Positions 9,406-21,656 of a stretch of 22,968 nucleotides of DNA are shown here, in pieces. The notes below the pieces were generated by a model. That model worked only from the letters and a program-made list of their open reading frames with translations, was not told the origin of the DNA and did not search any database. Origin of the DNA: a virus. The position numbers were made by a program, and so were the translations under genes. Numbering within the stretch: position 1 is the stretch's first letter; each line of letters starts with the position of its first letter. The DNA lies in IMG/VR virus record IMGVR_UViG_3300021961_000675, positions 1-22,968 of that record; one strand, written 5' to 3'.

Positions 9406-10113
9406 CTAGAAATTTGTATATCCGTGTTCTAAATAAAATATATAATTGTCTTTAAAAATGTCGTAAAGTTGATTAGCTATTTTAGTAATTTTAGGGGTTT
9501 TAGCATCAACTTGTTCACGGATATAAATGTAAAGTGCCTTTTTATTAAAGACATCTAAATTTTCTCTTTTTCTAAATAACTCAAGAATAGCATCTGCTAT
9601 TTGAGCATCATCACCTTTTGGGAATAATTCAAATATATGTTTAGTACAATATTCTGTAAATAAATCTATAAAATCAGAGAGTTTGTCCGTTGCCGATTGT
9701 TCATCTATATGGTAAGAATGATTTTCATCTTCTTCTAAAACTTCAACAGGAGCTGTTTCAACTCGTTTTTTATAATTTTTCTGGTTAGATAAAATCAAAT
9801 AACGTTTGGCAATTGTACCAAAATAAGAATATGCCTTAGCTCCTTTACTTTGGTCATATAAATGAATTTTGTTTAAAAGGAATGTAATTACCTCATGTTG
9901 TAAATCTTCAATATTATCTACCTCTGTGTAATAAAATTTAAAGGTGTGAATAATATTTTCGGTAAGTTTGAAGAAAGCATAGTGAATTTTTTCACTATAA
10001 AGTCTACTTCTTTGAGCAGGGTCAGTTAAACTATTATATAATACTATAGAATCTTCAGTTTCTTGAGTAAAGTATTGTACCCCCTTTTTCTTTTTCGTCA
10101 TTACTAGTTCCAT
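9406..10113 (-). CDS. 55: Late-transcription sigma factor, T4 gp55-like
   Basis: This 235-residue protein contains a region-2-like sigma segment at about residues 66-110: DNIEDLQHEVITFLLNKIHL, then YDQSKGAKAYSYFGTIAKRY. T4 gp55 keeps this part and lacks a full sigma region 4; this protein likewise has no helix-turn-helix I can see at its C-terminus. It would replace the host sigma on RNA polymerase to fire late promoters. The start at 10113 is preceded by AAGGAGAT seven bases upstream, one of the few good Shine-Dalgarno sites in the window, and overlaps the previous stop as TAATG; an internal ATG at 10101 is less likely. It lies at the end of a unit headed by a host-type promoter and directly before the structural genes. 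Confidence 0.85.
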   Translation of the reverse strand: MELVMTKKKKGVQYFTQETEDSIVLYNSLTDPAQRSRLYSEKIHYAFFKLTENIIHTFKFYYTEVDNIEDLQHEVITFLLNKIHLYDQSKGAKAYSYFGTIAKRYLILSNQKNYKKRVETAPVEVLEEDENHSYHIDEQSATDKLSDFIDLFTEYCTKHIFELFPKGDDAQIADAILELFRKRENLDVFNKKALYIYIREQVDAKTPKITKIANQLYDIFKDNYIFYLEHGYTNF

Positions 10114-15296: not shown

Positions 15297-15327
15297 TGAA
15301 TATACGAAGGGGATCCTGCGGAGCCAA
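15297..15327 (-). promoter_or_regulatory. Host-type promoter, TTGG-N19-TATATTCA
   Basis: On the minus strand TTGG (15327-15324), 19 bases, TATATTCA (15304-15297), then an A-rich leader to the DUF932 start at 15266. The -33 box is preceded by a palindromic T/A tract (TTCTTTTTAAAAGAA) that also holds the stop codon of the upstream gene. The 23 bases 15322-15344 are identical to 16893-16915. Confidence 0.8.
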
Positions 15328-15334
15328 ATTTCTT

Positions 15335-16867: not shown

Positions 16868-16898
16868 TGAATATACGTATATCCTTTCCGATAGCCAA
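16868..16898 (-). promoter_or_regulatory. Host-type promoter, TTGG-N19-TATATTCA
   Basis: On the minus strand TTGG (16898-16895), 19 bases, TATATTCA (16875-16868), with the same palindromic T/A tract upstream as the promoter at 15.31 kb. Unlike most others it is preceded by about 310 bp without genes, not by a gene end. It would drive the 43-residue gene. Confidence 0.78.
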
Positions 16899-17724: not shown

Positions 17725-17755
17725 TGAATGTACGAACAATATTTCAGGGAGCCAA
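17725..17755 (-). promoter_or_regulatory. Host-type promoter, TTGG-N19-TACATTCA
   Basis: On the minus strand TTGG (17755-17752), 19 bases, TACATTCA (17732-17725), then 14 bases to the start codon at 17710. The stop codon of the upstream 191-residue gene ends three bases before the TTGG box, in an A/T-rich tract. It drives the 55-, 34- and 74-residue genes. Confidence 0.8.
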
Positions 17756-17757
17756 AT

Positions 17758-18333
17758 TTATTTTAAAGAGCTTCTGTAACGGTAGTGATAAATCTGAACA
17801 TAACCACCACACAATGTTCCGAATGTCTTGAATTTCATTCCGTCTACATCGGCAGTAACCTCGGCACCATCACCACCTACACGTACCTTAATATTGCTGG
17901 CAGTCATGTTATCATGGATGTGCTTACTCAGGGCACGGTTTAATTTCATCATATTGCTGGCAATGAAATCCTCACGGAAACGAGCTTCCCAATTGGCCCC
18001 CAACATCATACGGAGCTCATTAACCAACATTACTTCTTCCTTATTCATGAAGCGACGTGAACCATTGTATCCGGGCTCATAACTTGTAGGCAATACAAAT
18101 TTGCTCAACTCACTATTCCAGGTATGGTGGCGAGTCAAGAAAACATATTTTTCAACACTACTGTAAGTTTCAATACTGTTGTTGTACCTATTTATAATAG
18201 CGTTTCCATCAACTGTCATCCAAGCCAAAAATGCATCCTTACGCTCGTGCATTTCTTTGATTTGCTTGTCGGCCAATTGTTCAACAATAATTTTGGCTTC
18301 TTTTTGTATGTGAATTAATGCATTACCTTTCAT
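17758..18333 (-). CDS. Hypothetical phage protein, 191 residues
   Basis: This basic protein has two parts. Residues 1-135 are helical (KEAKIIVEQLADKQIKEMHE early; LRMMLGANWEARFREDFIAS in the middle). Residues 145-191 are beta-type (IKVRVGGDGAEVTADVDGMK, then a Tyr-rich GGYVQIYHYRYRSSLK end). No family is recognised. It is the sole gene between the promoters at 18.37 and 17.74 kb, with the leader AATAAAGGTTATG. Codon use and composition match the neighbours. Confidence 0.78.
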   Translation of the reverse strand: MKGNALIHIQKEAKIIVEQLADKQIKEMHERKDAFLAWMTVDGNAIINRYNNSIETYSSVEKYVFLTRHHTWNSELSKFVLPTSYEPGYNGSRRFMNKEEVMLVNELRMMLGANWEARFREDFIASNMMKLNRALSKHIHDNMTASNIKVRVGGDGAEVTADVDGMKFKTFGTLCGGYVQIYHYRYRSSLK

Positions 18334-18358: not shown

Positions 18359-18389
18359 TGAATATACGAACGAGGGGTCGGGGAGCCAA
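18359..18389 (-). promoter_or_regulatory. Host-type promoter, TTGG-N19-TATATTCA, with upstream palindrome
   Basis: On the minus strand TTGG (18389-18386), 19 bases, TATATTCA (18366-18359), then 25 bases to the 191-residue gene. A 19-bp palindrome lies exactly 21 bp upstream of the TTGG box, the same distance as at the promoter at 20.55 kb. Confidence 0.82.
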
Positions 18390-18410
18390 CCCTTTGTGAA
18401 ATTTTTTGTC

Positions 18411-18429
18411 ATTTGGAATAATTCTAAAT
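18411..18429. promoter_or_regulatory. Palindromic putative operator/activator site
   Basis: ATTTAGAATTATTCCAAAT (minus strand) is an imperfect palindrome with one mismatched pair, followed by GACAAA. The same element occurs at 20591-20609. Its centre would be near -68 relative to a start seven bases after the -7 box, a place where class I activators bind. Confidence 0.55.
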
Positions 18430-18455
18430 GAAAGTATATATTTCTTTCTCTATGT

Positions 18456-18502
18456 AAAGGGTTGGGGGCTCGGGGAAAAGGGGTTAATACGGGCCAACCC
18501 TT
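18456..18502 (-). repeat. Inverted AAGGGTTGG repeats around a C-rich loop
   Basis: AAGGGTTGG (minus, 18502-18494) pairs with CCAACCCTT (18465-18457) across a 28-base pyrimidine-rich loop. It follows the long small-gene operon and could slow or end its transcription, though no T tract follows. GGGTTGG also occurs in the promoter at 18.37 kb and, inverted, near 18573. Confidence 0.45.
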
Positions 18503-18507
18503 GTACC

Positions 18508-18588
18508 CTATCCCCGTACCACCTCGTTCCACATACCCTCGAACACACCATAACACGTTCCACCCACAACATAGGGTTGGTCATCCAT
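18508..18588 (-). CDS. Possible 26-residue peptide at end of operon
   Basis: ATG at 18588 lies directly after the TAA of the preceding gene (TAAATG) and opens a frame for MDDQPYVVGGTCYGVFEGMW ending NEVVRG, followed by TAG. The direct junction is like others in this operon and the composition is protein-like, but it is short and has no recognised relative. It might equally be a chance frame. Confidence 0.4.
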   Translation of the reverse strand: MDDQPYVVGGTCYGVFEGMWNEVVRG

Positions 18589-18888
18589 TTAATTTACTTC
18601 CACCGATTGCTCCTTATCGCCACTATCCCTATATGCCTCCTCATTCAATCGTTTATATTCCTCAGGTGTGACTCCCTTCATCAACATATATGCCTCGAAA
18701 TCGATATCCAAGTGTCTCCATTTATCCGCCCACTCACGTATCCATTCCTGTCTGTGTTTATTGAATTCCTCGTATGTCATATTTCTAAATATATTATCTG
18801 GATTATTATTTCTCCCCCCATGAGAGTTGGTGCGGGAAAGGATCCGCCAGTCCTCATCATCCAAATACTCAAGGGTTGCTTTGTTCAT
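18589..18888 (-). CDS. Hypothetical charged protein, 99 residues
   Basis: A highly charged, Trp-containing helical protein: EYLDDEDWRILSRTNSHGGR near the start, FNKHRQEWIREWADKWRHLD in the middle, GVTPEEYKRLNEEAYRDSGD near the end. There are no membrane parts. It is among the last genes of the operon that begins at 20.52 kb, five bases after the 51-residue gene. No family recognised. Confidence 0.74.
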   Translation of the reverse strand: MNKATLEYLDDEDWRILSRTNSHGGRNNNPDNIFRNMTYEEFNKHRQEWIREWADKWRHLDIDFEAYMLMKGVTPEEYKRLNEEAYRDSGDKEQSVEVN

Positions 18889-18893
18889 TTTAT

Positions 18894-19049
18894 CTAATAT
18901 GCTATTTCATCCTCATCGTCCCATTGTTCTCTCCAGTACAGGAGAAAGTCGTTTAGGACAGCTTTGCTTTCATCATAATTTTTATCATCATAGCTTTCAA
19001 CATCGTTGAGGTATACTTTGATCATTTCTTGTATTACGTCTAGGTTCAT
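18894..19049 (-). CDS. Small acidic protein, 51 residues
   Basis: The start is placed at 19049 because this ATG overlaps the TGA of the preceding membrane-protein gene (ATGA); the frame runs further upstream to 19097, but that part lies inside the neighbour. The product (MNLDVIQEMIKVYLNDVESY, ending WREQWDDEDEIAY) is acidic and helical. No family recognised. The ATGA coupling suggests a dose linked to the membrane protein. Confidence 0.72.
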   Translation of the reverse strand: MNLDVIQEMIKVYLNDVESYDDKNYDESKAVLNDFLLYWREQWDDEDEIAY

Positions 19050-19396
19050 TTCCAGAATATTTGTATTAGTACGATAAGTAAAGCCAAAGATAAACATACT
19101 ATAGTTTTTATAGTCAATGGTTCCTTAAAAATCAACCAGCTTCCAATCGCAAAAACAATAGCGCCTAATCCAAAACCAATCAAACGTTGAGGCCATATTT
19201 GTCCATTAAATGCTACTGTCATCATTTTAGCATAATACATCCATATCATTGAGACTGGAACACCCAACAATGCTAGTGCCCAATAATGTTTGTTCCAACT
19301 AGGCCATTTGATTGGTCCTTGTAGTTGTAGAAAGGTGACAGCTTGGATTATTAGTCCAAGTATCACCCCCCACAATACTAGTAGTCCATTTATCAT
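19046..19396 (-). CDS. Four-helix membrane protein, DMT/SMR-like
   Basis: This 116-residue protein has four hydrophobic segments at about residues 3-24, 39-58, 70-90 and 97-115. Its C-terminal half, RLIGFGLGAIVFAIGSWLIF followed by KEPLTIKTIVCLSLALLIVL, recalls the last helices of EamA/DMT transporters, with Glu-Pro in the conserved place. Size and topology match small multidrug resistance (SMR) proteins, but the typical membrane Glu of helix 1 is not present. It overlaps both neighbours by four bases (ATGA). A phage could use it to alter transport or membrane potential; this is inference. Confidence 0.75.
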   Translation of the reverse strand: MINGLLVLWGVILGLIIQAVTFLQLQGPIKWPSWNKHYWALALLGVPVSMIWMYYAKMMTVAFNGQIWPQRLIGFGLGAIVFAIGSWLIFKEPLTIKTIVCLSLALLIVLIQIFWK

Positions 19397-19677
19397 GGAA
19401 CAGGAGTTTGTGTTTTAACTCGGTCGAAAATACTATCGGTACGAATAGCTTGATTTTTGTTGTACTCACGTAGTACATTAGTCAAACTATCTGTTACTTG
19501 GATATTTTTTTCCACACAACACAAAACGGAATCCGTTTCACTTAAAGTTGAATCTACACGCTCAAATAATTCTTCTTGATTGTTGATTCTTGAGTTAGTT
19601 TCCACTACCTCCCTAATGGCTAGAGCAATAATTACAATTACTCCAATCCACAATACTATATTAATATATTTTCTCAT
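19393..19677 (-). CDS. Membrane-anchored coiled-coil protein, 94 residues
   Basis: An N-terminal transmembrane helix (residues 4-22, YINIVLWIGVIVIIALAIRE) is followed by an extended hydrophilic coiled coil with adjacent cysteines at about 53-54 (SVLCCVEKNIQVTDSLTNVL) and a Pro-containing tail. The layout resembles inner spanins, but the gene is 6 kb from the lysis cassette and has no o-spanin partner. It overlaps the genes on both sides by four bases. Function unknown. Confidence 0.72.
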   Translation of the reverse strand: MRKYINIVLWIGVIVIIALAIREVVETNSRINNQEELFERVDSTLSETDSVLCCVEKNIQVTDSLTNVLREYNKNQAIRTDSIFDRVKTQTPVP

Positions 19678-19862
19678 ATTCCAAAACTATAATCTTCCCA
19701 ACCAGCATCTGTTTCAGCTTGGGAATCGTCCCATTCTAGCTCTTCATTCATTTCATCTATGATTTGTTGAGCCTCATCTTCATCAACCCATATTCCATCC
19801 TGTATATTAGGAAAGTAATACATGCTGTCTATTGTATAAAAATCTTTAAGACTGTACCTCAT
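19674..19862 (-). CDS. Small acidic protein, 62 residues
   Basis: Starts MRYSLKDFYTIDSMYYFPNI and is very acidic afterwards (WVDEDEAQQIIDEMNEELEW), ending with an Asp/Glu- and aromatic-rich tail. It overlaps the previous gene by 17 bases and the next by four (ATGA). Such acidic small proteins recur in this operon; no family is recognised. Confidence 0.7.
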   Translation of the reverse strand: MRYSLKDFYTIDSMYYFPNIQDGIWVDEDEAQQIIDEMNEELEWDDSQAETDAGWEDYSFGI

Positions 19863-20091
19863 ATTGTTCTACTTGTAATTTTAAACTACCATATCTCTCT
19901 AGCACCAATAAATCAAATATTGTTTCAACACCTTGGTATGTGTTGTCAAGTGGTATTACTGGTGTATCTGGAGCTAATTTCCTATATAGATCATTTCTCC
20001 ATATAACAGCTACTTTACCATTTCCAGTTCCCATACGACGAGCAATCTCAATTACCTCATCACCATATTCAATTCCAAATGTTGTACTCAT
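19846..20091 (-). CDS. Hypothetical protein, 81 residues
   Basis: A compact mixed alpha/beta protein: FGIEYGDEVIEIARRMGTGN, then KVAVIWRNDLYRKLAPDTPV and an amphipathic end (IFDLLVLERYGSLKLQVEQY). It lies three bases after the 86-residue gene in the operon starting at 20.52 kb. No family recognised. Confidence 0.72.
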   Translation of the reverse strand: MSTTFGIEYGDEVIEIARRMGTGNGKVAVIWRNDLYRKLAPDTPVIPLDNTYQGVETIFDLLVLERYGSLKLQVEQYEVQS

Positions 20092-20094
20092 ATC

Positions 20095-20355
20095 TTAAAA
20101 ATTTGCTACTTTAGAAATAATATCTGCTACCTGATCTACAGGAACCCATCCCATAACCTCAGTACCATCTAGAACTGGAGTCAAATTATCATCTTTATCC
20201 AAAATAAACCAAGTGTCCTCATTGTCCCAAATAGCTACCTCAGCAGAATCAGGACCACTATGACTTGTTTTACCACACTGAACACTAATAGTCATTTTGT
20301 TAGAGAAGGTCATATGAAAACCCTCGTTGAAATCGTTTTTAACTATATTAATCAT
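20095..20355 (-). CDS. Hypothetical protein, 86 residues
   Basis: The start is set at 20355 (MINIVKNDFNEGFHMTFSNK) because it follows the AATAAAAGTTATG leader seen before other genes here; the frame extends to 20394 without such a signal and into the gene upstream. The protein is beta-rich (TISVQCGKTSHSGPDSAEVA, then WFILDKDDNLTPVLDGTEVM). No family recognised. It is the second gene of the operon under the 20.55-kb promoter. Confidence 0.73.
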   Translation of the reverse strand: MINIVKNDFNEGFHMTFSNKMTISVQCGKTSHSGPDSAEVAIWDNEDTWFILDKDDNLTPVLDGTEVMGWVPVDQVADIISKVANF

Positions 20356-20366
20356 AACTTTTATTT

Positions 20367-20522
20367 TTATCCAACCATTATTTCTATTAAACAATCACAA
20401 ATCCAAGCTTTATCATAGATTTGTTTTGCAGTACGTTCAACAGCCATAGCACTAGAACAATCATTGGTGGAGTAAATATCTTTAATCTCACCATTTTTAA
20501 CTACTTTAACTATATATCTCAT
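20367..20522 (-). CDS. Small hypothetical protein, 51 residues
   Basis: ATG at 20522 opens a 51-codon frame: MRYIVKVVKNGEIKDIYSTN, then a helix (SSAMAVERTAKQIYDKAWIC) with three cysteines in total, ending IEIMVG. It is the first gene after the 20.55-kb promoter and has the leader AATAAAGGTTATG. The beta-beta-alpha pattern fits a small folded domain. No family recognised. Confidence 0.7.
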   Translation of the reverse strand: MRYIVKVVKNGEIKDIYSTNDCSSAMAVERTAKQIYDKAWICDCLIEIMVG

Positions 20523-20538
20523 AACCTTTATTATGCCA

Positions 20539-20569
20539 TGAATATATGAACTAGATCTCAGGAATCCAA
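20539..20569 (-). promoter_or_regulatory. Host-type promoter, TTGG-N19-TATATTCA, with upstream palindrome
   Basis: On the minus strand TTGG (20569-20566), 19 bases, TATATTCA (20546-20539), then 16 bases to the start codon at 20522. A 19-bp palindrome lies exactly 21 bp upstream. It drives the longest small-gene operon of the window, down to about 18.5 kb. Confidence 0.82.
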
Positions 20570-20590
20570 CCTCCTTTAAAAGTATTTGTC

Positions 20591-20609
20591 ATTTAGAATG
20601 GTTCTAAAT
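20591..20609. promoter_or_regulatory. Palindromic putative operator/activator site
   Basis: ATTTAGAACCATTCTAAAT is a perfect palindrome of two 8-base arms around three bases, followed on the minus strand by GACAAA. The copy at 18411-18429 has the same spacing to its promoter. It could also act as a short hairpin after the 55-residue gene, four bases away, but no T tract follows. Confidence 0.58.
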
Positions 20610-20790: not shown

Positions 20791-21582
20791 TTAATTAAAT
20801 AACTCACTCTGAAATTCAATATCCGGAATTGCTACACCTTTTTTATTTACTACATTAGCACATACTTTATTAGCAAATTTAATTGCCTCAGGTATGCTTC
20901 GTGACAAATAAAATTTTAAGATAAAAGCAGCAGTAAATGTATCTCCAGCTCCACTCACATCAATAGTGTCTTGTGGGTTTGGACTTGGGTATATTTCATC
21001 TAAATACTTTACACCTTTAGCCCCTAATGTAATCAATACTTGTCCTACTAAATCGTTTTCAATACCAAAGTTTTTCAACCATTCAACCTCATTTAATTTT
21101 ATAAATGTAGCGTGTTTAACTTTATTTGGTTGTAGTGTTTTTTTAGTATCAATAATAGACAATTTAGCCAAACTCAATATCTGTTCAATGTTATCAAAAC
21201 CCAAATATCCTTTATTGTAATCTGAAATAATAACAATATCGGATTGTGAAATGGTTTCACGTTGTGATGGAGATAGAAAACCAATATTATTAATAGACTT
21301 ATCTTCACCTTCATCCAACCTCATAATCATGTGGTTAGTTTTATTGTGAACAAATCTAGTTTTAGTAATTGGATTTGTTTGATGCCAAAACACTACTTCG
21401 TATTTGTCTTCGGGCAACAATGCTTTTAGATTAGAAACAACATTACCCGCCATACCTTGGTTTTCAACTACTTCAGTTGGATTCAAAACCGGAACTGGAG
21501 CTTCAGGACACAACCTATTTATGTTACCATAAACAAATCTATCTAATCCTAATTCTCCTATAACTAATATTTTAATTTTCAT
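20791..21582 (-). CDS. PfkB-family sugar kinase, HldE/RfaE N-domain-like
   Basis: From ATG at 21582 the protein has 263 residues. It follows the heptose-7-phosphate kinase pattern: ILVIGELGLDRFVYGNINRL, then CPEAPVPVL (residues 25-33), GMAGNVVSNLKAL (43-55), NHMIMRLDEGED (83-94), ISDYNKGYL (119-127) and the ATP/anion-hole motif DVSGAGDT with catalytic D214. HldE's N-terminal kinase makes heptose-1,7-bisphosphate on the way to ADP-heptose for LPS. The protein is about 50 residues shorter than the usual domain. It is coupled to a 25-residue membrane peptide by an ATGA overlap. The frame continues to 21603 in the same direction, but that start lies inside the peptide gene. Substrate specificity is not provable from sequence. 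Confidence 0.87.
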   Translation of the reverse strand: MKIKILVIGELGLDRFVYGNINRLCPEAPVPVLNPTEVVENQGMAGNVVSNLKALLPEDKYEVVFWHQTNPITKTRFVHNKTNHMIMRLDEGEDKSINNIGFLSPSQRETISQSDIVIISDYNKGYLGFDNIEQILSLAKLSIIDTKKTLQPNKVKHATFIKLNEVEWLKNFGIENDLVGQVLITLGAKGVKYLDEIYPSPNPQDTIDVSGAGDTFTAAFILKFYLSRSIPEAIKFANKVCANVVNKKGVAIPDIEFQSELFN

Positions 21583-21656
21583 TTCTTTTTTCTCACAAAC
21601 CATAAAAATGCCACAACCATTACATTGATAAATAATATGGTTATAGCAAATTTCAT
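21579..21656 (-). CDS. Membrane peptide, 25 residues
   Basis: ATG at 21656 opens MKFAITILFINVMVVAFLWF followed by VRKKK and TGA: a single hydrophobic helix with a basic end. It follows the previous stop as TAATATG and overlaps the kinase start as ATGA, which is strong positional support for so short a frame. It may anchor a partner or simply couple translation of the kinase. Confidence 0.62.
   Translation of the reverse strand: MKFAITILFINVMVVAFLWFVRKKK

Follow-up and report, generated by a model that had tools for sequence, protein, structure and literature searches.

Two 19-bp palindromes in a phage DNA fragment were each set at one fixed distance upstream of a promoter, and the same site recurred in helical phase in related phages, in unrelated phages and in host genomes. 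The palindromes are judged, with confidence somewhat above even, to be sites for a host-encoded regulator of the Fur family that activates phage promoters, most likely the Fur of Bacteroidota. The identity of the motif, its fixed and helically phased spacing, its conservation, the parallel in the host and the near-absence of a Fur gene from the phage records were all shown computationally.

The window, that is, the whole stretch of 22,968 nucleotides that was analysed, is an IMG/VR fragment with nearly all of its genes on the minus strand. It encodes a baseplate wedge protein with 46% identity to its counterpart in Flavobacterium phage immuto, six tRNAs and a DUF932 protein, and has promoters with the -33/-7 boxes of Bacteroidota; by inference, the window most likely belongs to a T4-like phage of a Bacteroidota host. 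Positions 9406-10113 gave a weak sigma-70 region 2 match (E 0.0016) and a match to late sigma PHROG 234 (E 0.034), and the predicted product is, on these weak matches, a possible T4 gp55-like late sigma factor. A phage-borne PfkB-type sugar kinase gene was present at 20791-21603. The parts of the two palindrome promoters and the promoters of the same type without a palindrome were as follows:

20591-20609, minus (coding) strand: palindrome ATTTAGAACCATTCTAAAT, a Fur-box-like operator; perfect 8-3-8 with 8/8 arm pairs, centre at about -66
20588-20590, minus strand: GAC immediately on the promoter side of the upper palindrome
20566-20569, minus strand: TTGG (-33 box) of the upper promoter, 21 bases from the palindrome
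20539-20546, minus strand: -7-like box TATATTCA of the upper promoter
20367-20522, minus strand: first ORF downstream of the upper promoter, 51 aa, without a family match
18411-18429, minus strand: palindrome ATTTAGAATTATTCCAAAT, with 7/8 arm pairs, centre at about -66
18408-18410, minus strand: GAC after the lower palindrome
18386-18389, minus strand: TTGG (-33 box) of the lower promoter, 21 bases from the palindrome
18359-18366, minus strand: -7-like box TATATTCA of the lower promoter
17758-18333, minus strand: 191-aa ORF downstream of the lower promoter; its homologue in contig G008 also has a palindrome at 21 bp
17725-17756, minus strand: same-type promoter without a palindrome (TTGG start 17755)
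16868-16898, minus strand: same-type promoter without a palindrome (TTGG start 16898)
15297-15328, minus strand: promoter of the DUF932 gene (TTGG start 15327); palindrome absent here and present in 13 relatives

Both palindromes were directly followed by GACAAA and separated from TTGG by exactly 21 bases, in agreement, for coordinates and sequences alike, with an earlier note on this DNA; the -7-like box TATATTCA started 44 bases after the palindrome in both promoters. In flavobacterial sigma-A promoters TAnnTTTG lies at -12 to -5 (PMC9723704), and because the -7 box was taken to span the same positions here, the centre of the palindrome was placed at about -66. The earlier note had put it near -68. 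The same note had the other promoters of the window without the palindrome, which was true of the three further promoters found. Taken alone, the window made a moderate case for the palindrome pair, with shuffled sequence expected to yield a perfect 8-3-8 palindrome about 1.2 times and an equally similar pair present in 1/60 shuffled windows; significance was supplied by the relatives.

Related phages were collected by pattern scans of IMG/VR for (a) the palindrome with the 21-bp distance and (b) the promoter alone, with many contigs in common, and the related set comprised 24 contigs (1.24 Mb), some of them chosen on spacing. Palindromes in these contigs were linked to a promoter in 24/24 cases when exact, 22/23 with one mismatch and 6/10 with two mismatches, and the spacing to TTGG at all 52 linked sites was only 21 or 11 bp, one helical turn apart. 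A spacing-blind scan for ATTTAGAAYNRTTCTAAATGA, the consensus of 62 sites of the phage family, returned 37 distinct sites, 35 linked to a promoter (22 at 11 bp, 11 at 21 bp, 1 at 20 bp and 1 cut off yet visibly at 11 bp) and 2 unlinked. Many unlinked copies, or loss of the spacing in relatives, would have refuted the earlier proposal that an activator site, set at a fixed distance, singles out some of the promoters. Unlinked copies amounted to 1/47 (one mismatch at most, related contigs) and 2/37 (spacing-blind), and the spacing was kept or shifted by exactly one helical turn; the proposal was supported, with activation itself inferred. An unlinked one-mismatch copy (G010:31344-31362) overlapped the start codon of MKKADNFDTKQW..., a placement shared by no other near-exact copy.

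The promoter of a KaiC/RecA-like ATPase gene had the site at 21 bp in seven contigs and at 11 bp in two, and the orthologues differed by exactly 10 bp, as predicted by a face-dependent contact. Other genes downstream of the sites were DUF932 (13 contigs), a near-leaderless 46-aa basic protein and the 191-aa gene of the window; since the DUF932 promoter of the window lacks the palindrome, membership turns over. The 46-aa basic protein (MMKEQDKFNGLSKGQVKQIIRRNMITR...) followed sites of the 11-bp class (G010, G013, G041, G042, G053 and others) and had no match in Pfam. Among cultured or named relatives, Flavobacterium phage immuto, Microcystis phage Mel-JY01 and LR756508 had no copy of the palindrome with one mismatch or fewer and were thus of no use for the comparison. 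No cultured match resulted from tblastn with the 191-aa gene of the window or with two genes that lie behind sites in other phages.

A scan of viral contigs for the bare palindrome added 109 further distinct sites, which were pooled with two scans requiring a downstream TAnnTTTG into 161 non-redundant pairs. The distance from palindrome to -7 box (d) peaked at 14, 34-35, 44-46 and 54-56, with almost none at 24, and had a period of about 10.2 bp (Rayleigh 0.49 for the 161 sites, at most 0.26 in 300 random sets). The position of an activator site, upstream of the -33 box and in helical phase, was thus met both in the relatives (11 or 21 bp) and elsewhere (10.2 bp). A letter-permuted palindrome gave 3 contigs, as compared with more than 120 matches for the real palindrome, and chance origin of the link between palindrome and promoter was ruled out by this control and by the relatives. 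The d 14 class was mostly upstream of longer, structural-looking genes and the d 34-55 classes mostly upstream of short ORFs. Unrelated contigs of about 50 kb (G381, G383, G386, G405, G409 and others) had two to three copies each, one copy being flanked by two divergent promoters, one at d 14 and the other at d 34. Searches of the literature for Fur boxes in phages turned up nothing comparable to these sites.

The exact 19-mer ATTTAGAATNATTCTAAAT is, as reported in one study, the Fur box predicted for Riemerella anatipestifer (Flavobacteriales), where purified Fur gel-shifted promoters with putative boxes and the box was described mainly at iron-uptake genes under repression, no more than 100 bp from the start codon; the box had itself been predicted from degenerate sites (PMC5609570). 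The window copies, which have 8/8 and 7/8 arm pairs, matched the flavobacterial Fur box ATTTAGAATTATTCTAAAT, with a variable centre. The sequence of 19 bp is the same in R. anatipestifer and in the phage, but the phage sites stand at a fixed upstream distance in phage promoters and have an added GA. A palindrome scan of GTDB genomes, with 80 loci read, located copies beside Fur-family genes and, judging by a reading of translations, also beside putative rubrerythrin, katG, hemA and nqrA genes. All six Fur-family genes tested beside genomic copies were PF01475 by Pfam, varied Fur-family genes in other phyla were adjoined by similar palindromes, and a Fur homologue was present in 57/60 Bacteroidia genomes tested. 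Autoregulation of host fur by the palindrome was rejected, with only 2/30 Fur genes having a palindrome upstream.

The core palindrome followed by TAnnTTTG at 42-60 bases was present in 49/395 Bacteroidia genomes (none with the reversed control), and d was 43-46 or 54-57 in 53/59 host sites. Most of the 30 host loci read had a downstream cytochrome c of about 420-480 aa, with 5-6 CxxCH motifs (multihaem) in the four that were counted; by reading, this cytochrome was assigned to the first gene of an alternative complex III operon (act-like). Genes downstream of host sites also included nqrA (PF05896) and one called sdhC-like on resemblance alone (a 120-aa piece without a Pfam match). Proximity of the motif to host genes linked to iron or respiration was met by the cytochrome c, nqrA, sdhC-like and periplasmic binding protein genes. 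The phases were the same in host and phage, and loci L700-L729 together with other Bacteroidia form a candidate respiratory regulon across the phylum.

In the proposed mechanism, a host Fur-family regulator would bind one face of the helix at about -66, and in relatives at -56 as well, and would touch RNA polymerase, perhaps through its alpha subunit, raising initiation. The targets would be some of the phage promoters, in other respects ordinary promoters of the host sigma-A type; the same geometry is apparently used by the host upstream of respiratory genes, and phage genes would thereby be tied to the iron or respiratory state of the host. Fur as the binder, activation and the part of the polymerase touched were all inferred, without binding or cell data. 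A host regulator already working with host RNA polymerase would explain that unrelated phages, with no Fur gene in 65/66 records and no regulator gene in common at blastp level, have the same site and phase. Activation was inferred over repression because the sites are phased and lie upstream and because the targets are respiratory.

The GA next to the palindrome was not accounted for by Fur alone and remains unexplained. It was present on the promoter side of the palindrome in 62/62 sites of the window's phage family, where TGA at positions 19-21 was invariant and shifted together with the palindrome at both spacings, and two promoters retained the promoter-proximal half-site alone, again at 21 bp. 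Only 2/160 flanks of genomic (host) sites had GA, and the flanking bases thus did not match those of host sites; nearly all sites of other phages (109 distinct sites) were without it. Scans for the 21-bp class did not require GA and those for the 11-bp class partly did. With GA present in the phage family and lacking at host sites, the binder may differ from Fur.

An activator encoded by the phage could read the palindrome plus GA and mark a temporal class of promoters, in which case the site would be Fur-like and the protein phage-made; this is unlikely, although it retains some weight from the GA that is invariant only in the window's phage family and from two proteins. A winged-helix protein of 93-106 aa was encoded directly downstream of a palindrome promoter in contig G001 (16072-16350) and in the unrelated L387 (near 3446), and downstream of a decayed palindrome copy in G010 (62524-62802); it is the best candidate for a phage factor, a candidate that would be autoregulated, but was found in few contigs. 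The other, of 214 aa, occurred in 12 contigs and has a segment that resembles a helix-turn-helix (own reading, no Pfam match). Against a phage-encoded activator, the same phases were present at host genes and no regulator gene was common, at blastp level, to the phage groups sharing the site: when the proteins of 15 further phage contigs were clustered against those of the T4-like set, the only ones shared were one of 131 aa, an HNH-like one and a few more. A phage-encoded Fur was not found save in one record of 66, as a PF01475 gene was absent from 65/66 phage records (0/16 and 1/50 with the gene), all of them fragments. As most of the contigs were incomplete, the analysis may have overlooked a factor encoded by the phage.

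Another host regulator of respiration, either a PerR- or Irr-like member of the Fur family or an unrelated dimer, could also read the palindrome and activate, and this possibility was considered quite doubtful. The sdh genes of R. anatipestifer were iron-responsive in a fur mutant too; it is thus not shown that Fur itself activates genes of this kind, and another Fur-family member or respiratory regulator could be the real activator. The respiratory host targets and the similar palindromes beside varied Fur-family genes of other phyla are compatible with such a regulator, but the 19-mer is identical to the flavobacterial Fur box and no further candidate was found.

Fur is chiefly and classically known as a repressor, and some host copies of the palindrome overlap the promoter, e.g., that of a periplasmic binding protein gene (L659, d 8). 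Host Fur holding phage genes low in iron-replete cells through a repressor operator was nevertheless regarded as very improbable, as the phage site stands clear of the -33 box, upstream of it and in strict phase with the helix, and repressors that overlap promoters need no phase. The reading of the palindrome as an intrinsic terminator, or as a hairpin in the RNA of the gene upstream, was rejected with hardly any reservation, for although the copy at 20591-20609 starts 4 bp past a stop codon (20614) and a stem is possible, no T run follows the palindrome, folding was no better than that of shuffles (z 0.21 and -1.21) and the phased spacing was locked to the promoter and not to the upstream gene.

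Several known systems resemble the phage arrangement in part. Boxes of the PerR and Irr type (Fur superfamily; 7-1-7 inverted repeat TTAGAATNATTCTAA) are mostly repressor sites; they have the inverted repeat in common with the phage site, but no phased distance to a phage promoter. The class I and class II sites of Escherichia coli CRP, at -41.5, -61.5, -71.5 and -82.5, likewise differ by whole turns between allowed positions, with one turn omitted, whereas the phage positions are -36, -56, -66 and -77 and both sequence and protein are different. In the middle promoters of T4, with the mot box at -30, an activator site likewise singles out some of the promoters of a T4-like phage, but the palindrome is not at -30 and MotA is encoded by the phage. 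At the Fur-controlled stx1 promoter of Shiga toxin prophages host Fur likewise acts on a phage-borne promoter, but there one prophage cargo gene is repressed, without a phased upstream site at core genes.

What is new is the probable nature of the site, as a Fur box of the host lying at activator distance, together with the fact that it recurs both in phages and at respiratory genes of the host throughout the phylum. The evidence was evenly balanced for the broader proposal that many unrelated Bacteroidota phages use host Fur as an activator, with boxes phased at -36, -56, -66 and -77 that copy the layout of host respiratory genes and with expression gated by host iron and respiration. If this is true, Fur or a close relative would be an activator of class I and class II style throughout a phylum, and there would be a link between iron supply and infections by common aquatic phages.

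In many promoters of this type (L312, L319, L056, G008:43054 and others) the TTGG box was contained within an inverted repeat, e.g., GGGGTGGCTTCGTCACCCCTCTTT. The example at 18359-18395 of the window (GGGTTGGCTCCCCGACCC) folds as a 7-bp stem, and these repeats have the look of a terminator that sits between the two promoter boxes (-33 and -7).
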